Shown: in pieces, positions 25,271 through 39,605 of the stretch | Position numbering within the stretch: the first letter of the stretch is position 1 | Layout: every line of letters starts with the position of its first letter | DNA from: Burkholderiales bacterium | GTDB taxonomy: Bacteria; Pseudomonadota; Gammaproteobacteria; Burkholderiales; Usitatibacteraceae | NCBI GenBank assembly: GCA_025360815.1 | Contig: JANYBL010000005.1 | Span: forward strand, 1 to 64,000 | Length of the DNA stretch: 64,000 nucleotides | Reading direction: 5' to 3' | Notes under the pieces: generated by a model | Seen by the model: only the letters and a program-made list of their open reading frames with translations | The model's database searches: none | What the model was told of the DNA's origin: nothing | Program-made: the position numbers and the translations under genes

Positions 25271-27388
25271 TTATCGTGCAGTCGAATTTGTCGTTCGGCT
25301 CGTTCTAAACCGACGCACGCCGAGAATAAATTGTGCGGTCGCATCGGCGGCGGTGCGATTGGGTAATCTATCGGCATGGCCAGAAGGCTGTCCGCGTCTG
25401 TGGCTCGGTCGTTTGGCTCGCCCCTGGCCCTGCCCCTGCCCCCGCCCCTGTCCTTGTTCCTGAAGTTGTCCGTACCGCAACGCAATGTATTGGTCAAATA
25501 AGGGCTTTAGCTCGGGGACGAGTCGCGGGTGGTGCGATGCAATTCGCTGCAGAAAGTCCATTGGCCCTTCCTCCGGCGTGCGCGTTAAGTCAGCACCTGT
25601 GTTGGATTTTAGCAGCGCTAACTTGGCGCAAAGCCGATCATACGCGGCCACAACTGGCTCTTTTTGGGTTTGGTAAACGCGCCAAAAAAGTACGCCGCCT
25701 ACCACGCCACCCGCAATGAATATGCCGATGAGCAGCGCCAAACCAGTTGAGCGCCAATCGACGTCACGTATGCCAAAATTTTCAAACAAATTTCGTTGAC
25801 GATCTGCGTTAAAACCCACTACCCATTGATTCCACTGGCTGTTGACTGCATCCCATGAATAACGAAGCTGGCGAAGAATACCCAGTTTGTCGGCCTCCAT
25901 CATGATGTTGAATGCACCTTGCGGCCCGACGGCAGCACTTAGGCCGCGATTAATCCGCAGCGGAGAGACAAAGGAAGTCGGGTCTACCCTGAGCCAACCG
26001 AGGTCATCAAACCAAACTTCTGTCCATGCATGTGCATCGGACTGGCGCACGATCATCTGTTTGGTAATGGGATTGATGTCGCCGCCTTGATAGCCCGTTA
26101 CAACCCGTGCGGGGATCCCTGCCGCACGTAAGATCAAGACAAAGCTGCCGGCATAGTGCTCGCAAAAACCTTGCTTGGTCTCGAACAAAAATTCATCCAT
26201 CGAATTCACGCCGAGCTTTGGGGGCTCCAAGGTGTAGGTGAACTCTTTGTTGTAAAGCGTGAATAGCTTTTCGACCAATGCTTTCGGATCGGGATTGTCT
26301 TCGGCTAATTTCTTACCGTAAGCGATGGTGCGGGGATTTAAGTTGCTGTTGTAGCGGAGACTATTTTGGCGATCAATCGGCGTAAGGGGGTCAAGCGTCC
26401 GGTAACCCAGATACGACGTCACATCGTAGGCAATTAGCTGGGAAACAGGCTCCCGTGATCGCATTTGAAAATCTGCCAGAAAAAACGCACGGCCCTGTGC
26501 TTCAGCAGGCAAAGCCGCGGGCAAATCCAGCGCAAAGAGCCAGGTTTTATTGTGCGGCTGAAGTGTTACCCGATACTTAATCGGCGGTGATCGCTTCTCA
26601 AAATTAAGTTGGCTGCGCTCCTCGGTGGAAATCGGTGTCCAGCCGCGCCCAGACTGCCTTGCCAGCACGGGGCCGCGCCAGTAAAGCTCTTGGCTTTGCG
26701 GCGTGACGCTCTCAAAATCGACTCTAAACGCAATTGCGTCAGACAGGCTCAGGCTACTAATATCGCCCGGCGTCATGCTGTCGGACAAGCCCGATATCGC
26801 TTGATTCTCCTGCGGCATGCTCCATAGCGGCCCGGATAGACGCGGAAAAAGAAAAAACAGCACCAACATCATTGGAATTGCCTGCAGCATGAGCCACGCG
26901 GCGGGGATGACTCGCTCGCGGATGGTTGCCTCCGTATTGATGCGTTGGAAACCAATTAGGGTGGCGATAAAAATCCACACACAGCCAAACATATATGCGC
27001 CCATAAAGATGGACTGCGAATATAGAAAATTGGTGAGCGCCAGAAAGAAACCCAGAAAAATCACCAGCAATACATCGCGCTTCATTTTCATTTCGAGCAC
27101 TTTGAGGCAAAGCATGACGATCAGCAACGTCACACCTACCTCGCGGCCAAACAAGCGTTTGTATTCAAAAAACGCGCCGACCGTAATCGCCACGGTGATA
27201 ATAGCCATTAGCCACCACGGTGGCGCGCGTAATGCTTTCCGCGCTATCCACAAACGCCAGAGCCCGGCAGCGACGCAAGTTGCCGTTACCCATGCCGGCA
27301 AGTGCGAAACATGCGGCGCAATTACAAACGACATCGCCGCTAGCAGCCACATGATATTGGCTAAGGTAAGTGCGCCCTGGTTAATCAT
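25271..27388 (-). CDS. tgpA: TgpA-like transglutaminase with DUF3488 membrane domain
   Basis: 705 residues. The first ~200 contain several membrane helices (DUF3488), followed by a periplasmic transglutaminase-like core. The catalytic Cys is in KQGFCEHYAGSFVLILR, His in DAHAWTEVWF and Asp in GWLRVDPTSFV. A later helix near 560 and a C-terminal cytoplasmic domain (YQTQKEPVVAAYDRLC) are usual for TgpA. Unusual is a Gln-Gly-Arg repeat near 640 (GQGRGQGQGQGR), built from hexamers of CAGGGS. The final VRRFRTSRTTNSTAR fits the family ending, so the frame appears intact. Its start overlaps the DUF58 stop by eight bases. DUF58, TgpA and MoxR normally act together in envelope assembly. Confidence 0.92.
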   Translation of the reverse strand: MINQGALTLANIMWLLAAMSFVIAPHVSHLPAWVTATCVAAGLWRLWIARKALRAPPWWLMAIITVAITVGAFFEYKRLFGREVGVTLLIVMLCLKVLEMKMKRDVLLVIFLGFFLALTNFLYSQSIFMGAYMFGCVWIFIATLIGFQRINTEATIRERVIPAAWLMLQAIPMMLVLFFLFPRLSGPLWSMPQENQAISGLSDSMTPGDISSLSLSDAIAFRVDFESVTPQSQELYWRGPVLARQSGRGWTPISTEERSQLNFEKRSPPIKYRVTLQPHNKTWLFALDLPAALPAEAQGRAFFLADFQMRSREPVSQLIAYDVTSYLGYRTLDPLTPIDRQNSLRYNSNLNPRTIAYGKKLAEDNPDPKALVEKLFTLYNKEFTYTLEPPKLGVNSMDEFLFETKQGFCEHYAGSFVLILRAAGIPARVVTGYQGGDINPITKQMIVRQSDAHAWTEVWFDDLGWLRVDPTSFVSPLRINRGLSAAVGPQGAFNIMMEADKLGILRQLRYSWDAVNSQWNQWVVGFNADRQRNLFENFGIRDVDWRSTGLALLIGIFIAGGVVGGVLFWRVYQTQKEPVVAAYDRLCAKLALLKSNTGADLTRTPEEGPMDFLQRIASHHPRLVPELKPLFDQYIALRYGQLQEQGQGRGQGQGQGRAKRPSHRRGQPSGHADRLPNRTAADATAQFILGVRRFRTSRTTNSTAR

Positions 27389-28394
27389 CGCTTGGTTCCA
27401 GGTTCAAGCCAAAAAGCGCCAAGCCCTTCAAACACTTTTCGTAGTGGATGTGCCCGGTTGACGGTTGAAACGATTGGCGTTGTAGTTTCAAACCGTATGG
27501 AACTTGTCGGCGCTCAGCCTCCAGTATCCACCACGTTAATCGGCTCAGGCGTTCTTCATGGCTTAAGTGTTGCAAAGTATCGCTGTCAAAGTCGAGCCAA
27601 AAATCGGCACTAGCCGTGGCGCCGAATTCTTTGGATAGCAGACCCTGCTCCCGCGCCAGCGCTTTCCAAGCAATTTGACGTGGTGTGTCGCCCGCTCGAT
27701 AAGCACGCAGCGATTGAAACTCCTCATCGCCTGCGACCGCGATATTGCCCACCCCATCACCGCGCGCATTGCTGGGAAGCGCGCCGCCCGCGGTGTCTGG
27801 TTTGGGGTAGGTTAAGCAGCGCATATTGAAATCAATATATGACCATGAATGAAACAATCCAACCGGGTATTCGGTAAAAATTTCTAGGCGTCCGCAGACT
27901 GCATAACCGCGTTTTTCGGCGACCATCGGGATCGAAAATGTTGTGCTGCTGCGGCTGGCAACATCACCGAAGCTCGGTTCAGCGTCGCGCAATTTAGTTC
28001 GCTTTACGCCTACCGCAAAACGGGGGAGGCTTGGGTTGGTTAAAACGAGCGAGAAATGCGCTGTCTCGCCTGCAAAAACAGCATCAACCTTGCCGGGACT
28101 AATCGATAGCTGTGCCAAATTTCGAAACGTATGGAGCATCGAAATGCTACCCATTCCAGCGAGTAAAAAGGTCAAGAAAAAACCGAGCGAAAGCGTGTAG
28201 TTGATCGACGCAATAAGCAGCAATACCAACACAAATGCAAAAAAATAGCCGGTGCGTGATGGAATGATAAAGATGCGACGCTGCACCAAAATAACGGGTG
28301 GTTTTTCTGGGCTGCGCGAACGAAAAATCCAATCTGCAATGCGTTGCCGAAACATGCTGGACAAGCCTGATAAACGAGCGTCGTTCACGGGCAA
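27381..28394 (-). CDS. DUF58 domain protein
   Basis: 337 residues with two membrane helices near the N-terminus (TGYFFAFVLVLLLIASINY and a second from about 65). The soluble DUF58 part shows FQSLRAYRAGDTPRQIAWKALAREQGLLSKEF, the signature block, which is related to von Willebrand A folds. It usually partners with MoxR ATPases. The start is uncertain: TTG 28394, GTG 28388 and ATG 28361 are all in frame and no clear ribosome site decides. The gene overlaps tgpA by eight bases and follows a DUF4124 gene. Confidence 0.87.
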   Translation of the reverse strand: MPVNDARLSGLSSMFRQRIADWIFRSRSPEKPPVILVQRRIFIIPSRTGYFFAFVLVLLLIASINYTLSLGFFLTFLLAGMGSISMLHTFRNLAQLSISPGKVDAVFAGETAHFSLVLTNPSLPRFAVGVKRTKLRDAEPSFGDVASRSSTTFSIPMVAEKRGYAVCGRLEIFTEYPVGLFHSWSYIDFNMRCLTYPKPDTAGGALPSNARGDGVGNIAVAGDEEFQSLRAYRAGDTPRQIAWKALAREQGLLSKEFGATASADFWLDFDSDTLQHLSHEERLSRLTWWILEAERRQVPYGLKLQRQSFQPSTGHIHYEKCLKGLALFGLNLEPSDD

Positions 28395-28412
28395 ACGGTG
28401 TTAAAACAAGCG

Positions 28413-29048
28413 TTATTTGCTGGTTTTGACATCCGATGCTTTAGGTTCAACAGCCTTTGCGTCCGTGGGTTTGGCGGCAGCTTTACCGTCGTTTGTTTTG
28501 GCCTCTGACGGTTTGGATTCAACTGGCTTATCGTTGAACATGAATGCACTAGGCTTGGCTTTGTCGCAGTCTTTGAGTCGGCGCTGATATTTGCGCAAGG
28601 CAGCAGGCTCGTCGCCATCGGGTTTGGAGGCGGAAATGATTTTGCTGGCCTTTGCCTGAAATTCAATCAACGTATCATTTAAAAAATTAATGCGTTCTTG
28701 CTTTGGTTTCCACGTTGTGTCCGACTTTTGCAGGTCGCCTGATCGTTGTGCCTTGTCGATCTCAATCGATAATTTTTCACGCTCACAAAGGCGATCCTCA
28801 AAATCGACAAACAGGGTTCCTAATTGCACCATCGACGTATTAACTGGCTTGCCGGCTACCGAATTCGATGCGGATGCGGGTTTGGCCAGCACATCTTTAT
28901 CGACGGCGCAGGGACGGTCACTGTATTCAATTTTGCCGTCAGCGCCCTTGCATTTGTAACTTTGTGCAAATGTATTTTCAGATGAGAGCATCAACATGCC
29001 AGCCAAGAAAGCGGCTAGTGTGAGGGCAGCGTTAATTGGGTTACGCAT
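28413..29048 (-). CDS. Exported DUF4124 protein with Lys/Ala-rich tail
   Basis: 211 residues. A signal peptide (ALTLAAFLAGMLMLSSENTFAQ) is followed by SYKCKGADGKIEYSDRPC, the short DUF4124 domain found near the N-terminus of many betaproteobacterial secreted proteins. The middle is helical and charged, and the end is a repetitive Lys/Ala/Asp/Pro stretch (DGKAAAKPTDAKAVEPKA). Its position between moxR and DUF58 is not part of the usual trio, so it may be a local addition. The role is unknown. Confidence 0.82.
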   Translation of the reverse strand: MRNPINAALTLAAFLAGMLMLSSENTFAQSYKCKGADGKIEYSDRPCAVDKDVLAKPASASNSVAGKPVNTSMVQLGTLFVDFEDRLCEREKLSIEIDKAQRSGDLQKSDTTWKPKQERINFLNDTLIEFQAKASKIISASKPDGDEPAALRKYQRRLKDCDKAKPSAFMFNDKPVESKPSEAKTNDGKAAAKPTDAKAVEPKASDVKTSK

Positions 29049-29134
29049 AGTAGAAATGGCCGTTTGAAATAGTGTGGTTGTTAAAATGAATTCAACTTAG
29101 CGATTAGCGGTTAAATGCTTTAGCGGTTGAATGA

Positions 29135-30082
29135 TTAAGGTATTGCAACATTCCGCAGTAATTCCTGTGCTGCATCAAGGATTTTGGTTTCGCCGCTGGT
29201 GATAGCGCGCAAACGATGCCCGACCACTGAGGGCGCAACCGCTTGCACGTCTTCCGGCAACACTTGCTGGCGTCCTGCCATCATCGCCCATGCCTGCGAG
29301 GCACGCAACAATGCCAAGCCTGCACGCGGGGATAACCCCATCTCAAAGTGCGCTGAATCACGAGTGTGATGAATGAGCGCTTGAACGTAATCAATCAATG
29401 CATCCGATACAAAAATGCCGGTGGCTGCATTTTGCAGCGCCAGCAACTGAGCAACGGTCATGGCGGGTGTAATCTTGGCAATGAGCTCGCGACGATCCTC
29501 ACCTTTTAACAACGCCCGCTCGGCCGCCTGGTTTGGGTAGCCTAGTTTGATGCGCATTAAAAACCGGTCTAATTGTGATTCCGGCAGCGGGAAAGTGCCA
29601 ATTTGGTGTGAGGGGTTTTGGGTGGCGATCACAAAAAATGGTGTGGGCAACGGCATGGTTTCACCGTCTGCCGTGACCTGATGTTCTTCCATCGCCTCTA
29701 ACAGCGCGGATTGTGCTTTAGGTGATGCGCGGTTGATTTCATCGGCCAAGATAACCTGCGAAAAAACGGGTCCGGGATGGAAACGAAACGTGCTCGACTC
29801 CCGATCAAAAATAGAGACGCCGACAATATCAGCAGGCAGCAAATCGCTGGTGAATTGAATCCGCTGATAATGCAGACCCAACAAGCTGGCTAACACATGC
29901 GACAGGGTGGTTTTGCCCACACCCGGCACATCCTCAATCAGCAAATGCCCCTTTGCCAAAATGCAGGCCATTGCGAGTTGAATTTGATGCTCTTTTCCTA
30001 AAATAATATCGCCAGCGCGTGCCATCACATCGGCTAAAGGACTGGAATGGGCATCCAAGCGTTCTTTTTTTTCGAGAAGCAT
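29135..30082 (-). CDS. moxR: MoxR-family AAA+ ATPase
   Basis: 315 residues of the MoxR AAA+ subgroup. Walker A is EDVPGVGKTTLSHVLASLLG and Walker B is VILADEINRASPKAQSALLE. Sensor I is in PFFVIATQNPSHQIGTFPLP and sensor II near LSPRAGLALLRASQAWA. MoxR proteins act as chaperone-like ATPases with DUF58 and TgpA. The order moxR, DUF4124 gene, DUF58, tgpA on one strand with small gaps makes an operon likely, continuing into the lipid genes. Confidence 0.93.
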   Translation of the reverse strand: MLLEKKERLDAHSSPLADVMARAGDIILGKEHQIQLAMACILAKGHLLIEDVPGVGKTTLSHVLASLLGLHYQRIQFTSDLLPADIVGVSIFDRESSTFRFHPGPVFSQVILADEINRASPKAQSALLEAMEEHQVTADGETMPLPTPFFVIATQNPSHQIGTFPLPESQLDRFLMRIKLGYPNQAAERALLKGEDRRELIAKITPAMTVAQLLALQNAATGIFVSDALIDYVQALIHHTRDSAHFEMGLSPRAGLALLRASQAWAMMAGRQQVLPEDVQAVAPSVVGHRLRAITSGETKILDAAQELLRNVAIP

Positions 30083-32722: not shown

Positions 32723-35152
32723 TCAACCGTCTTTCGCCATCATCCTAGCGCTAATCCGTTCGGCAAAGGTATCCTTGTTGTACGGCTTGGTGATCACGCC
32801 GTCGTATTCGCTGTTGTCTTTGTGGATGGCGTCGATGGCAGCGGTGCTGTCAGCGAGCAACAGCGGAATCTGATGCCCGTCGCCGAACTGGGCACGAAGC
32901 TGGGCAGCAATGGTTCGGTGCGGATCAAACCCAGGTGTGTCGGTATCAACCACGACAACATCAAAAATATCTTGAAGCAGCGCCGCAAATGCGTCACCAG
33001 CCGTTTCAACCACCACCGCACGGAAATCTTTTTTTCGCAGTGCTTTAGCGGCGAGCGCAGCGTGTTCACGGTTGGCGTCAATAAGCAGCACGGTACCCGC
33101 TTTGGATTCACGCAGCGAATGGCGGGTGATTAGTGTGTGCGTGGCCTCGGTGTCGTCCTGCGTGCCCATAACGGCAGCAATGGCGTCGTTGATTTGATCG
33201 GGGCTGATCGGGTGGCGCAGATAAGCGCTGATGCCGTTCTCGCGGCATTGGATGGCATCGCCCGGTTTGCCGCCCCGCGCCAACATCATGATCGCCGTCC
33301 GTTTTAACTTTGGCATATGCTTGATGCGGAACGCGAGCACAAAGCCGTCCTGGAATGGCATCGAATTGGCGGTGATGACGAGTGGGATGGATGTCTCTTC
33401 ATCGGCCATGCGTGACAGCAATTGAATCGCGACAGCGGCATCGTCAGCCTCGCGCACGTGCATGCGCCAACTGCGCGCGAGTTCGGCCAATTCTTTACGT
33501 TCCTCTAAATCGCTGCTGACGATTAATACCGGCAAACCGGTGAGAGTCACGAACGTGGGGCGGCTGCGTGCTTCTTTGACTTGCCGGAACGAGAATGCCG
33601 CAGTGAACTGATAGGCAATGGATTCTTTACGCTCACGGATTTCAATTTTGCCTACCGCTGCATTGCCGCCTACTTTGCTGCCAACGATACTGGTGCTGGT
33701 GCCGTTGCGCCCGACAATGGCGCGAACAATTTGACGCGCCATGGCAAGCTGCATCGTTCCCGAAGGCGTGAGGGACTTGCTGCGTACGCTACCTTTAGGC
33801 TGGACATGTTCAACGCTGAAGCTCAAATGAATCACCTTGTCAGCTACGTACTCAGGCTCAATGGTGAGCGAGAGTTCGGCATGGCGGTCCAGCCCGCTAG
33901 CGGGATCGCTGGCGAGGCCGCACTCCATCAGGTTACGCAATGCCAATGTCAACCGCGCACCGTCGCCGATGAGGTGTTCCGGCACGTCCTGCTCGATACG
34001 AAGCTTAAGTTGGATCCGCCTCTCTTGCGCCAGCGGCATAATCCGGTCTAGCAGCGAAGCGACGCTTTCACGTAGATGAAATTCGCTTGATTCCAACATG
34101 ATTTCGCTTGTTTCAAGCCTCGTGAAATCGATCAAACCTGCAATCGCACCAAACGCGGATTGGGCGGATGACTCAACGCGTTTGAAATGCTCAATCAACT
34201 GGCTCGGTAGATCAAGCTGTTCGGCACGATGAATCGCGCTACCCGCGCCTTCAACAGTGGTGGCTAATTCGCGCGCTACTTTTTCGATGAGTTGCACCTG
34301 CACAGCGGTGGTGGCTGAGACCGCTTTGCCCTCGCCGCTTGCGCTCATGCTGCCGCTAGTGCCGGCGTGAATTTTGGGACGAAACAAATGCAAGCGCCCG
34401 GCAATACCGGCTTCACTTGCCACCGGGCGAGTTTGTTGTGCAATGAGTGCGCCAGTATTGAGTGGGAACTCGAGCTCGTCCGCGTCGGCAGAATCCATTG
34501 GAAAATAAATTGGCCCGATACGTTTTTCCGTCACCATCGAGGCGCCCTCGAATAGTTCGGAAGTTGCCATACCGATTAACGATTGTGGTGCGGATTTTAT
34601 TTCAAACAAATCGCAAAAGGCATCGTTGACCATTTCTACCAAACCGTCTCGGCTCTCAATCACGCAGGCGTCAGAAATATGATCGACCAAATCTAGCAGG
34701 TGCGTGCCCTGCACATTGGCCGCCATCTCATTCGCTTTCTCAACACTTAAATCGCGCAGCCAAACGGCAATGCTCGTGACCTTGCCAGCATCACGTGAAA
34801 TCGCCGCGAGCTTTAGTTCGACAGTGATTCGTTCATTACTACTTTCATCAGTAAAATCTTCATTGCTTCCAGCAGACCCTTGGGATTCTTGGGCGTTGGA
34901 AGCGCCACGGAGCAATTCGATTTCAAGCGTAGCATCGCGGGTTTTACCGTCTACGATGCGTTTGAGGGTTTGTTCGAAACGGTTGCGATCAGACTCATCG
35001 AGGGCATCGGCAAACAAATAGCCCGCAGTGCTCTCAGCGGACCGGTCAATCCACGCGCTGGTGCTGGCGGTTGCGTAAGTCATTCGCCCATCGACATCAA
35101 GTTCGAAAACGGCTTCATTGAGCGCGGCGATAATTTGTTGGTAGCGAGACAT
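32723..35152 (-). CDS. Hybrid histidine-kinase-like protein with dead kinase core and two receiver domains
   Basis: 809 residues: two PAS-like sensor domains (about 5-135 and 150-255), a helical dimer domain with ATPase-like fold (285-525), receiver 1 (540-665) and receiver 2 (685-805). The core appears catalytically lost. The H-box aligns ARELATTVEG with SHELRTPLNG, putting Arg294 where the phospho-His belongs. The N-box Asn is Cys411, and no Asp-x-Gly-x-Gly box is seen. Receiver 1 has Ala595 at the phospho-acceptor and lacks its acidic pair. Receiver 2 keeps Asp736 and Lys789 (ITKPYNKD). There are no membrane helices, so it is cytoplasmic. It probably acts as a scaffold or phosphate sink for another kinase. 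No response regulator is adjacent. Confidence 0.82.
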   Translation of the reverse strand: MSRYQQIIAALNEAVFELDVDGRMTYATASTSAWIDRSAESTAGYLFADALDESDRNRFEQTLKRIVDGKTRDATLEIELLRGASNAQESQGSAGSNEDFTDESSNERITVELKLAAISRDAGKVTSIAVWLRDLSVEKANEMAANVQGTHLLDLVDHISDACVIESRDGLVEMVNDAFCDLFEIKSAPQSLIGMATSELFEGASMVTEKRIGPIYFPMDSADADELEFPLNTGALIAQQTRPVASEAGIAGRLHLFRPKIHAGTSGSMSASGEGKAVSATTAVQVQLIEKVARELATTVEGAGSAIHRAEQLDLPSQLIEHFKRVESSAQSAFGAIAGLIDFTRLETSEIMLESSEFHLRESVASLLDRIMPLAQERRIQLKLRIEQDVPEHLIGDGARLTLALRNLMECGLASDPASGLDRHAELSLTIEPEYVADKVIHLSFSVEHVQPKGSVRSKSLTPSGTMQLAMARQIVRAIVGRNGTSTSIVGSKVGGNAAVGKIEIRERKESIAYQFTAAFSFRQVKEARSRPTFVTLTGLPVLIVSSDLEERKELAELARSWRMHVREADDAAVAIQLLSRMADEETSIPLVITANSMPFQDGFVLAFRIKHMPKLKRTAIMMLARGGKPGDAIQCRENGISAYLRHPISPDQINDAIAAVMGTQDDTEATHTLITRHSLRESKAGTVLLIDANREHAALAAKALRKKDFRAVVVETAGDAFAALLQDIFDVVVVDTDTPGFDPHRTIAAQLRAQFGDGHQIPLLLADSTAAIDAIHKDNSEYDGVITKPYNKDTFAERISARMMAKDG

Positions 35153-35279: not shown

Positions 35280-36989
35280 TCAATGCGAGGTGCGCAAATG
35301 TTCGAGCAGCAACTGCAGGTGCTCTGCGGCGGATTCAACGGGCTCGCTAAGCATCGGTAGTAGCGAGGTGGCAATCGATTTTCCCAGCTCCACGCCCCAC
35401 TGATCGAAGGTGCCAACATTCCAGATTGCGCCTTGTGTAAAGACTTTGTGTTCATACATTGCCGCCAATGCGCCGACGTAATAGGCATTTATTTTTGGCA
35501 ACACCAGCACCGTCACGGGACGCCTGCCCGGACAGGCGCGGTGTGCGGCGAGGAAATGTTGTTGATCATCCGATAGGTTTTTACCGGCAAGGTCCGTAAA
35601 AGCCGCTTCGGTTGACCTGCCCTGCCAGAGCGCATCAGCTTGCGCAATGCCGTTTGCAAGAAGTTTTTCATGATGGCCTTTAAGACCGCTTTGCGGCTCG
35701 GCCACTAGTAAAATGTCCGCGGAAATCGCGTCGGTGCTCTGATGAAGCAGTTGATGGAACGAGTGTTGGCCGTTGGTGCCGACTTCGCCAAAAATCACTG
35801 GGCATGTCGAATACGTGACCGCATTGCCGTCAAGATCAACCGATTTGCCTGTGGACTCCATCTCAACTTGCTGCAGATGGTTGGGTAGTAGCCTCAAACG
35901 CTCGGCGTAGGGCAGCACCGCATGCGCAGTCAAATTCAAAAAATTGCGATTCCAAATGCCGGTAAGCGCTAGCATCATGGGTAGATTTTGTGCTGGTGGC
36001 GTATCGCAAAAATGGTGGTCCATATCGCGTGCGCCCGCTAGCAAGTCGGCAAACTGCGCATAACCACCGGCCAGCGCTATCGGCAGGCCCGCGGCGGACC
36101 AAAGCGAATAGCGGCCACCCACCCAGTCCCAAAATGTGAAAATAGTTTCGTCGGTGTAGCCAGCTCTTTTAGCCAAGGTTGGGTTGGCGGTAATGGCGAC
36201 AAAATGTGCAGGCACCGCATCTGCGCCCAATGCAGCGACTAGCCACGCTTCGGCAGAACCGGCATTGGTCATGGTTTCATCGGTGGTGAACGTCTTTGAA
36301 GTGACTGTAAAAAGAGTCGTTGCAGGGTTCAGGCCTGCCAAGACCTGTTCCAGATTAGCGCCGTCAATATTGGCGACAAAATGTACGCGCGGGCTGCTTT
36401 TGTTTCGCGACGCGTCCGCACTAGCGGGCGCTCGCGCCAGCGCGGTGCAAACGAACGCGGGGCCCAGGTACGAGCCGCCGATGCCAATGTTCACGACGTC
36501 GGTAAATGCTTGCCCGCTAATGCCACGGCGCCTTCCGGAACGGACGGCGCTGCTAAAATTTTCCATTTTTTTGAGCTCCGCCAAAATCAACGGGCGCACA
36601 TCAACGCCATCCACTAGCAACGGAGTTGTGTTGCGCGGGTCGGCTCTCAAGGCCGTGTGCAATACGCAGCGCTCTTCGGTAACGTTAATGGCTGATCCGG
36701 CAAACATCGCGTCGCGCTTTTTGCCGACCTCCATTTGTTCAGCCAATGCCGACAAAGCGTTTAGGCATTCTTGGTCGATTGCATGCCGTGAAAAATCGGC
36801 GAAAATTGGACTCTTGGCGGTGTCGTCAAGTCCGCCTTCGGCAGTGGATTGGGGCACTACCATTTCGATCGGTTTAATTGCGCTTGCGGCGCTATTGGCA
36901 ATTGCGGCTGAGGCTCGCACAGAAGCTCGCGCCGAAGCAGCAATGGCGATAAGGGCGTCCCAAGCGGTTGTGGTCGTGGGTGATGTCAT
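35280..36989 (-). CDS. pgi: Glucose-6-phosphate isomerase
   Basis: Interconverts glucose 6-phosphate and fructose 6-phosphate in the cytoplasm. Signature FGEVGTNGQHSFHQLLHQST, the block VNIGIGGSYLGP and DWVGGRYSLWSAAGLPIAL are intact, as is GVELGKSIAT near the end. The frame begins at TTG 37037, but ATG 36989 (MTSPTTTTAWDAL) is preferred. About 40 residues ahead of the usual domain are Ala/Ser/Arg-rich. Length (569) is slightly above the usual 550. Downstream, the kinase-like gene starts 127 bases further on the same strand. Confidence 0.95.
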   Translation of the reverse strand: MTSPTTTTAWDALIAIAASARASVRASAAIANSAASAIKPIEMVVPQSTAEGGLDDTAKSPIFADFSRHAIDQECLNALSALAEQMEVGKKRDAMFAGSAINVTEERCVLHTALRADPRNTTPLLVDGVDVRPLILAELKKMENFSSAVRSGRRRGISGQAFTDVVNIGIGGSYLGPAFVCTALARAPASADASRNKSSPRVHFVANIDGANLEQVLAGLNPATTLFTVTSKTFTTDETMTNAGSAEAWLVAALGADAVPAHFVAITANPTLAKRAGYTDETIFTFWDWVGGRYSLWSAAGLPIALAGGYAQFADLLAGARDMDHHFCDTPPAQNLPMMLALTGIWNRNFLNLTAHAVLPYAERLRLLPNHLQQVEMESTGKSVDLDGNAVTYSTCPVIFGEVGTNGQHSFHQLLHQSTDAISADILLVAEPQSGLKGHHEKLLANGIAQADALWQGRSTEAAFTDLAGKNLSDDQQHFLAAHRACPGRRPVTVLVLPKINAYYVGALAAMYEHKVFTQGAIWNVGTFDQWGVELGKSIATSLLPMLSEPVESAAEHLQLLLEHLRTSH

Positions 36990-37373
36990 GTCGGTTCGAT
37001 CAAATTTTGTGAGGGATGGATGAAATGCGTGAAGCAAGTTTATCGCTTATGAGGCGGCTTGCGCGGCGATTGAAGTATCAATATGCATTTGTGCACGTAG
37101 CTCGGTCGATAGTCATGCCTATTCGAAGGTCACCGCGATAATTTTATGTCGAAGCAGGTTTTTATCAACGTAGTCGAGAGAGAGCCTTATTTTTCATAGG
37201 CGGGACAGGCGGCGCATAGAGAACAGCTTTTTAGGTAGATGGGTCGTCAAAACGTGCCTGTTCTCAGGAGGAATACTTACCCCTCCCGCCGAGCGGGCTT
37301 AGAATTTTTTGATATGCAAAATAAAAAAGGGGCAACCTAGCGGTTGCCCCTTTCCGAATGAAACGAAACAATA
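36990..37373. other. Gap between the small exported protein gene and pgi
   Basis: About 380 bases with no convincing gene. It contains the terminator of the small exported protein gene (37326-37353) and a GC-rich palindrome CCCGC-CGA-GCGGG near 37287. The remainder should hold the pgi promoter. Confidence 0.4.
37326..37353 (-). terminator. Rho-independent terminator
   Basis: AAAGGGGCAACC and GGTTGCCCCTTT form a 12-bp stem around a four-base loop, and on the minus strand a T-run follows. It lies 21 bases after the stop of the small exported protein gene. Confidence 0.85.
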
Positions 37374-37696: not shown

Positions 37697-39493
37697 TTAT
37701 TTTGTATCCCCGCCATCAATCTCAAGATGGCCCGCATTCCCGATTTGTCTCAGGTTATTGACGTTGACGATATTAAAGCGCTTGTCAATCAAGTCCGCAT
37801 CATCAAAATGTCGGGTGCCGACAAATGCCGTCGCATGTGTGCCCCATTGCCGCATTGCACCGGGGCTTAAAATGCCCATCGGCCAAAAGAAAAATCGCTC
37901 GCCGCGTTCTGTGCCGGCCACGAGGCCGTTGGGACCAAAGATGCTCTGGTGCCCTGTTCCATTTTCGTTGCGGGCATCAAGCGCATGTGATTCGACAGGC
38001 AGTGAAAGTAAATCACGCTCTGATTTGAGCTGATAAATTTGCAGTGGAGTGGCAGGTTTGAACGCATCAACAATACGAATACTGGTCAAATAATGAGTGC
38101 CCGAGGCGATTCTCACTACAACACGTTGCCCTGCCACAAATGTTGGTAGCGTTTCTGGCACAAACGCCCATTCTATATTTTCGGTAGGAGCCGGAGACGG
38201 TGCGAGCGTGGGCGTTGGGAAAAACAAGTGATAGCACCCGCAGCCGTGAATGCTATCGACCAACATCGGTAAGCCATCGTGATCGAGCGTGATGCGAACA
38301 ATCACGCCATCCAAATGACCACCCAATAAATCGAAGGCTGCCGTAGCCGATTTGGGCCGCTCGGTAAACCACGCACTGTACGATAATTGCACATGAGTTT
38401 TGCCAGCTATTCGAGTGAAGCCAACGCGCTGATATACGGCTGACTTCGCGGGCTCAACAATGACTTGTTCGTGAGGACCAAACTTTATTTCGCCGATCCG
38501 ATCAAATATTCCCTTGGTTTCCACCTCGAAAGCGGGCGCATGTCGGTTTAGTAGCCGCTGCCATTCGCCAGTCGAGAACTGCGGTATGCCCAAAACGTTG
38601 CGAACGCTGTCACGAAAACTACGTTCTATATCAACGCTTGTTTTGCCTTCATCGTGTTCTGCGGCCAGCTGATAACGGATGAATGCTTCCTCCTGTGTAG
38701 CATCGATAATGTTGGCGGCAGCTAAAAATGTATATTTGGTGCTGCGCTGCCAACCTAAAATGCCCTTAAAGAACGGAATGGACGTCAGCGGATAAAGCCC
38801 CAGAGCGCGCTTCCAGCTTGCGTAATGATCGGGCACCCGCCAGAGGGGAGCAAGTTTTTCAAGCAATGCTGTGTTGCTACCATTTTCACCCAGATCGCGC
38901 CGCACCAAGGCTTGCGAGCAATTGGTGAGAGCAGTGCGGACCGCAGCGGCATCGGTGAGGCCGACCGCATTTCGCCAACGTTGGGGTAAATTGCTGAATT
39001 CATTCTGGCGGGCGGCGAGATCGAGCCCACGTGCGTACCAAAGTAAAGGCGGCAACATTTTGGGCTCGGCTGCGGAGCCCGCTTGCAATTTCTCCCGAAG
39101 TTGGGGCTGAAACGATGCGATAAAACGATCAATGCGCAGATGAGGAAATCCGTCGAGTCGGTGCTCGCCCGCGTCGCGGATGCCGGCCGCTTCCACAATG
39201 ACGTCGAGTTTTTCGAACCAAGCTTGGCACGCTTGGGCAGAAGGTTGGGAATTATTTTTGTTGGCTTGCAGCGCGTCAGGCGCTGGGGGCGCTGCGCTGG
39301 TACGGGCAATTACCGCTGGTACGCTGCCACGGTCGTGCAGACTTATCGTTGTGCAACCTTGGCAAAGCAGCATCGTCATTGCGAAGGCAACAAAGGCGAG
39401 CCCGATGTTGGTCCGATTCGCAATGGCTGCACTTGGTTGGAAGGGCACAATGCTCGTGGTTTTTTTCGTAAGCATTTTCATCGATGTTGACAT
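37697..39493 (-). CDS. Large lipoprotein of unknown function
   Basis: About 598 residues. A long basic N-terminus is followed by a lipoprotein signal (FAMTMLLCQGC, lipobox Cys ~47), so the mature protein is membrane-anchored. It is mostly soluble, with no recognised domain. Notable is HGCGCYH near residue 416-422, a compact His/Cys cluster that could hold a metal, followed by a Pro-rich linker (FPTPTLAPSPAPTE). Blocks such as FVGTRHFDDADLID and WFTERPKSATAAFD look structured. The frame begins at TTG 39496; ATG 39493 is used, and ATG 39481 is also possible. It is divergent from the GspE-like ATPase across about 110 bases. Confidence 0.72.
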   Translation of the reverse strand: MSTSMKMLTKKTTSIVPFQPSAAIANRTNIGLAFVAFAMTMLLCQGCTTISLHDRGSVPAVIARTSAAPPAPDALQANKNNSQPSAQACQAWFEKLDVIVEAAGIRDAGEHRLDGFPHLRIDRFIASFQPQLREKLQAGSAAEPKMLPPLLWYARGLDLAARQNEFSNLPQRWRNAVGLTDAAAVRTALTNCSQALVRRDLGENGSNTALLEKLAPLWRVPDHYASWKRALGLYPLTSIPFFKGILGWQRSTKYTFLAAANIIDATQEEAFIRYQLAAEHDEGKTSVDIERSFRDSVRNVLGIPQFSTGEWQRLLNRHAPAFEVETKGIFDRIGEIKFGPHEQVIVEPAKSAVYQRVGFTRIAGKTHVQLSYSAWFTERPKSATAAFDLLGGHLDGVIVRITLDHDGLPMLVDSIHGCGCYHLFFPTPTLAPSPAPTENIEWAFVPETLPTFVAGQRVVVRIASGTHYLTSIRIVDAFKPATPLQIYQLKSERDLLSLPVESHALDARNENGTGHQSIFGPNGLVAGTERGERFFFWPMGILSPGAMRQWGTHATAFVGTRHFDDADLIDKRFNIVNVNNLRQIGNAGHLEIDGGDTK

Positions 39494-39605
39494 CAAATGA
39501 TTATAAACATTTTCGATGAATAACCGCGCGCATCACACGATCCACACCATCGCATGCCACATCGTTGTAATATAGCCAATCTCGTTGAAAAACATCAAAA
39601 ACGCT

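Follow-up and report, generated by a model that had tools for sequence, protein, structure and literature searches.

The window, a 64,000-nucleotide stretch of DNA from a member of the Usitatibacteraceae (Burkholderiales), contains an open frame of 809 codons (positions 32723-35152) that begins with ATG at 35152, runs down the minus strand to 32723 and has no internal stop codon. All other features given below with window positions lie on the same strand. The 809-residue product has the domain order PAS-PAS-DHp-CA-REC1-REC2 and is derived from GacS/BarA-type hybrid kinases. Its PAS domains comprise residues 1-135 (34748-35152; Pfam PAS_4, 1.4e-8, and AlphaFold secondary structure) and about residues 136-260 (34373-34747; Pfam PAS_8, 6.6e-6, and the AlphaFold model). 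A DHp-like two-helix domain without a phospho-His follows (residues 277-345, 34118-34324), with model helices at 277-312 and 317-340 and a match to GacS (7z8n). The remnant of the CA (ATPase) domain spans residues 346-525 (33578-34117). REC1 (residues 540-663, 33164-33535) and REC2 (residues 685-809, 32726-33100) are joined by a linker (33101-33163) whose conserved TLITRHSLRE motif is common to canonical relatives. One member of the group, L011 of genome G010, has a short His-rich repeat insertion (NTSHHTSHHTSHHTS) at the DHp-CA junction, at the equivalent of about residue 351 of the window protein.

Pfam recognized two PAS domains and two receivers in the protein, with no HisKA and no HATPase_c match. 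NCBIfam gave BarA as its best model, but the score of 73 bits lies below the cut-off of 890, which places the protein outside the GacS/BarA equivalog. GacS (7z8n) was the closest solved structure by sequence (E 3.7e-11, residues 281-410). The AlphaFold model has a mean pLDDT of 75 and a pTM of 0.32; because this confidence is moderate, the arrangement of the domains in the model is uninformative. The folds of the PAS, DHp, CA, REC1 and REC2 domains are all retained in it, with segments at 1-135 and 136-260 (PAS), a CA-like mixed alpha/beta fold extending to 522, REC1 at 541-662 and REC2 at 686-808. In Foldseek searches ShkA (6qrj) was the top full-length match, and RetS and GacS matched the core. 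VIA-align gave CheY at Z 21 for REC1; its rows lie mainly over REC1, and families missing there may still be related.

Catalytic residues were assigned by alignment with the solved GacS and with eight canonical hybrid kinases from the order. The position of the phospho-His is occupied by Arg294 (CGC, 34271-34273), that of the N-box Asn by Cys411 (33920-33922) and that of the REC1 phospho-Asp by Ala595 (33368-33370), all three as the original prediction had read them. An active HisKA kinase has a phosphorylatable His in an HExx[TN] H-box, and N and G1 boxes for ATP and Mg. The window protein has Arg294 at the first site, and the HisKA model (E 0.001), which found 12 other sites in the same genome, did not match it. 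Besides Cys411 at the N-box, the G1 Asp and the ATP lid are gone, and the G1 Asp is replaced in all 20 full-length members aligned. The original prediction saw no G-box at all; this was right for G1, but a G2-box remnant can still be read, as MQLAMARQIV in the window protein and GMGVAVAKFMV in the other clade. Autophosphorylation by the window protein is very unlikely, and we infer that it has no catalytic activity.

REC1 has a receiver fold (Pfam Response_reg, CheY-like) without the phospho-Asp and is thus an aspartate-less receiver, or pseudo-receiver, as defined in the literature (PMC12632262). Where a canonical receiver has its DD, D, T and K residues, REC1 of the window protein has S546, S547, A595, A625 and H647. 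In 20 of 20 members the DD, D and K positions are without catalytic residues and the T has become Ala. In REC2, Asp736 and Lys789 are present, as had been claimed, but this receiver is not intact: its second Mg-binding acid is Ala693 in the window protein and Ala, Pro or Ser in every member. Asp692 and Lys789 are retained in 20 of 20 members and Asp736 in 19, and the T/S position varies within the window's clade. By its residues REC2 would therefore also be classed as a pseudo-receiver under the published definition (PMC12632262), despite Asp736 and Lys789. In one member, L024 of genome G022, the REC2 phospho-Asp is a Glu (GAA); such a change often mimics phosphorylation.

The gene was found in 23 of 28 genomes of the bacterial family, in all four genera. 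In two more genomes (G002 and G025) it is cut by a contig end behind pgi, the glucose-6-phosphate isomerase gene, which brings the species with the gene to 25 of 28. Genome G003, 98% complete, has pgi and no trace of the gene behind it; neither the gene nor pgi was found in the remaining two (86% complete). Outside the family we found no member in 250 genomes of the order and 370 of the class, sampled sets in which, at the thresholds applied, either canonical kinases or no hits came up. In the tree the 20 full-length members form one clade with 100/100 support, apart from canonical kinases.

The catalytic losses are ancient and family-wide. Across the 20 members the residue at position 294 varies among R, A, E, Q and H, and 18 of them lack the H-box His. 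The two His codons are each one base away from the Arg codons of close relatives (CGC/CAC and CGT/CAT), and both of these members are without the N-box Asn, so the ATP site is still dead. Two members with the N-box Asn carry Glu at position 294. No homologue among the 20 has both the H-box His and the N-box Asn, and the intact relatives that would have contradicted the original prediction thus did not turn up. Recent decay is ruled out, the losses being common to the whole family. HATPase_c was detected in 9 of the 20 members and HisKA in none; the H-box and REC1 losses therefore probably came first, with further erosion of the CA domain probably following in the window's clade.

We estimated dN/dS by Nei-Gojobori counting for the four pairs in which it was computable. 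The whole-gene ratios were 0.10 (L015-L018), 0.21 (L015-L017), 0.25 (L022-L023) and 0.28 (L005-L007), and REC1 reached 0.02 in one pair. The comparison of the window with its nearest relative is saturated at synonymous sites (pN 0.15, pS 0.76); the two proteins are 74% identical, compared with 67% for the neighbouring Pgi. The gene is under strong purifying selection, and neutral decay does not fit.

Mean identity between the two deep clades was 0.59 for REC1, 0.56 for the linker, 0.36 for CA, 0.34 for DHp and 0.29 for REC2. The corresponding values within the canonical set were 0.49 for REC1, 0.35 for the linker, 0.52 for CA, 0.81 for DHp and 0.53 for REC2, a rough comparison, since these canonical relatives are few and their depth differs. 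REC1 is thus the most conserved domain of the group and REC2 the least conserved across clades, an inversion of the canonical order. By these identities, constraint has shifted from DHp and REC2 onto the aspartate-less REC1. Three derived residues at the former active site of REC1 are invariant, Ser546, Ala625 and Arg646; canonical relatives share most of the GDAxxCRxxGIxxYL block and of the TRHS linker. The original prediction had overlooked this shift, as well as the missing second acid of REC2 and the pgi operon described below.

A decaying gene without function would account for the lost catalytic residues and for the free variation among R, H, A, Q and E at the former phospho-His site. 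Full-length open frames across four genera, the conserved operon position and a REC1 whose identity between the deep clades exceeds that found among active relatives speak against it, and the dN/dS values argue against a pseudogene. We regard this reading as scarcely credible; for practical purposes it is refuted. The original prediction, which held the gene not to be a simple pseudogene, is thus upheld by old, family-wide losses under strong purifying selection.

It also proposed that the protein may be a scaffold, or a decoy fed by another kinase, with emphasis on REC2 as the live acceptor. The same losses and selection support a scaffold-type role. A phosphate sink, in which another kinase or an Hpt protein phosphorylates Asp736 and the dead core is no more than a platform, would be in keeping with the retention of Asp736, Lys789 and Asp692. 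It also has a precedent in RetS, whose REC2 accepts phosphate from GacS (PMC5992135), and possible donors in the genome, which encodes several Hpt domains as well as 11 HisKA domains that exceed the cut-off. The two acids of a receiver bind the metal that stabilizes the phosphoryl group (PMC8510515), but the second is missing from REC2 in every member. The variable T/S position in the window's clade, the low identity of REC2 across clades and the one member with Glu at Asp736 also count against a sink, and the case for REC2 as a live acceptor is weakened. A decoy is conceivable but unlikely, and it is not the best reading.

The pgi gene (35280-37037) lies directly upstream; its frame is counted from a TTG, with an ATG 16 codons later. 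This same-strand arrangement was found in 19 of 22 genomes examined, namely the window and 18 of 21 others; in three relatives the gene does not adjoin pgi. Gaps measured at 14 loci in relatives ranged from -4 to 29 bp, with 4-base overlaps in two. The window departs from this pattern with a gap of 127 bp. This gap yielded no terminator-like site, and a terminator-like hairpin lies 5' of pgi. A promoter-like site upstream of pgi (37141-37168) is a consensus match only, the regional count being not above that of shuffles. The adjacency, the short gaps and the lack of a terminator-like site between the genes make co-transcription likely. Neither the link nor the gene is indispensable, as three relatives have the gene away from pgi and G003 has pgi without the gene. 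We found no literature tying pgi to a hybrid kinase among the top search results.

Only pgi recurs directly upstream in both clades, and no other neighbour is as widely common. In the window the kinase-like gene is followed by a DUF1275-like gene, of which the other loci have no homologue. Upstream of pgi in the window is a 599-residue lipoprotein-like frame (37697-39496), which is 51% identical in L030. As read from the sequence, transglutaminase-like, DUF58-like and MoxR-type ATPase genes stand in a row at 25271-30082. At L034 and other loci of the same genus, a divergent pair that resembles an ATP-dependent DNA ligase and an exonuclease lies upstream of pgi; this pair recurs beside pgi or the kinase-like gene in part of the family.

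Because the catalytic residues are nearly all lost while the gene is kept intact family-wide, its product probably acts through binding to other proteins and not as a catalyst. We place about half of our confidence in an ancient degenerate hybrid sensor kinase retained as a phosphorylation-independent regulator or scaffold, with PAS input and REC1 output. The two N-terminal PAS domains would receive the input, the DHp helices would dimerize and relay a conformational signal, and the CA remnant would serve structure. The output would be a binding surface on the aspartate-less REC1 and the TLITRHSLRE linker. Expression is probably tied to pgi through co-transcription, and in some relatives also through a stop codon that overlaps the next start, so that the protein level is probably matched to central sugar metabolism. 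The retention of Asp736 and Lys789 suggests some remaining role for the REC2 pocket and counts against a scaffold that acts through REC1. The operon also raises the thought that the protein directly regulates glucose-6-phosphate isomerase or sugar flux, by binding Pgi or by sensing a sugar phosphate through its PAS domains, without phosphotransfer. We consider this improbable; if true, a two-component protein would have been recycled as the partner of a metabolic enzyme.

The main rival to a scaffold with PAS input and REC1 output is action like that of RetS of Pseudomonas aeruginosa, in which the DHp and CA remnant would inhibit an active kinase of the GacS/BarA type by pairing with it. RetS resembles the window protein in its degenerate CA domain without G-boxes, its two C-terminal receivers and a DHp-CA region related in sequence and fold. 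GacS and RetS are among the closest solved relatives of that region by sequence, and the fold search also matched RetS (6dk8, TM 0.68 on target length). RetS, which acts on GacS without G-boxes of its own, takes phosphate onto its REC2, removes it from the GacS receiver and prevents GacS from autophosphorylating (PMC5992135). A potential partner is encoded in the same genome by L002 (G000:C31, 18445-21924), a BarA-like hybrid kinase whose H-box, REC and Hpt are intact, but GacS/BarA-type kinases are widespread and the presence of one is not specific evidence. The first receiver of L002 itself seems degenerate too, with VVESR in place of the acidic pair and LLRPC around the Lys position.

In the window's clade, E295 and T298 (RELAT for HExxT) could support transmitter phosphatase activity, for which the His is reportedly non-essential in HisKA proteins (PMC12632262). 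T298 is kept in 5 of the 10 members of this clade. It is Val throughout the second clade, which has AELSV or EELSV, and the His of HExxT is gone, so a phosphatase mode is not a trait of the whole family and lacks its full motif in the window protein though E295 and T298 remain. RetS has the His, HExxT and an Asp in both receivers; the window protein has lost the His, the G1 Asp, all the REC1 residues and one REC2 acid, and has tandem PAS domains and a pgi operon. A RetS-type sink mode is doubtful, since REC2 is without one Mg acid. The DHp domain, with which such pairing would be made, is weakly conserved across clades (0.34). Overall we consider RetS-like inhibition possible but lean against it.

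ShkA of Caulobacter crescentus, the top full-length fold match, has the same DHp-CA-pseudoREC1-REC2 order, and its REC1 binds c-di-GMP (PMC7010744). A similar second-messenger sensor, with c-di-GMP on the alpha4-beta5-alpha5 face of REC1, would fit the conserved GDAIxCRENGIsAYLR block on alpha4-beta5, but much of this block is common to canonical relatives. Of the c-di-GMP residues of ShkA (Arg324, Tyr338, Arg344 and a DDR linker), only Tyr338 has its match, in Tyr644; the two arginines align with Pro630 and Ser650, and the linker has no DDR motif. With the key arginines and the DDR motif absent, c-di-GMP binding of the ShkA type is not supported and we judge it very unlikely. ShkA is, moreover, an active kinase with a working REC2.

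DivL, also of Caulobacter crescentus, is a pseudo-histidine kinase with its phospho-His replaced and several PAS domains, and functions without kinase activity, which shows that a kinase core can turn into an input module (PMC4211667). DivL keeps its N, G1, F and G2 boxes, consists of PAS-DHp-CA only and has a conserved Tyr, or in proteins of its type rarely Ala, at the His site. In the window protein the site is Arg and the boxes are lost; in its relatives the site drifts, and two receivers follow the core. Signalling via a paralogous kinase is still promoted by a ChrS variant whose CA domain does not work (PMC9491836).

Canonical hybrid kinases from other families of the order (L057 and L058, for example) likewise have the REC1 G[DH]AxRCxxLGIxxYL block and the LITRHSLRE linker. 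They differ in that the H-box (HEIRT) and the N, G1 and G2 boxes are intact and no residue of the DD, D, T and K sets is missing. NifL of Azotobacter vinelandii shares a PAS-DHp-CA-like arrangement, and its structure 9qq6 is among the top fold matches. NifL is not known to have receivers, its CA domain binds ADP, and it controls NifA through direct binding and not phosphotransfer.

Pseudo-histidine kinases and pseudo-receivers have each been described singly. In a published sample, 0.9% of HisKA domains were without His and 2.0% of receivers without Asp, and the switching of pseudo-receivers has been termed a mystery (PMC12632262). We found no description of a protein like the present one in the open-access literature. 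Here a single protein combines catalytic losses in the kinase core and both receivers, yet selection has kept it family-wide, and constraint has moved onto its aspartate-less receiver. This provides a natural test of pseudo-receiver surface function, and the pgi operon gives an initial clue to the pathway. Pseudo-histidine kinases as such are known; the present one is new in joining a dead core and two pseudo-receivers to retention across the family, a shift in constraint and an operon with pgi.
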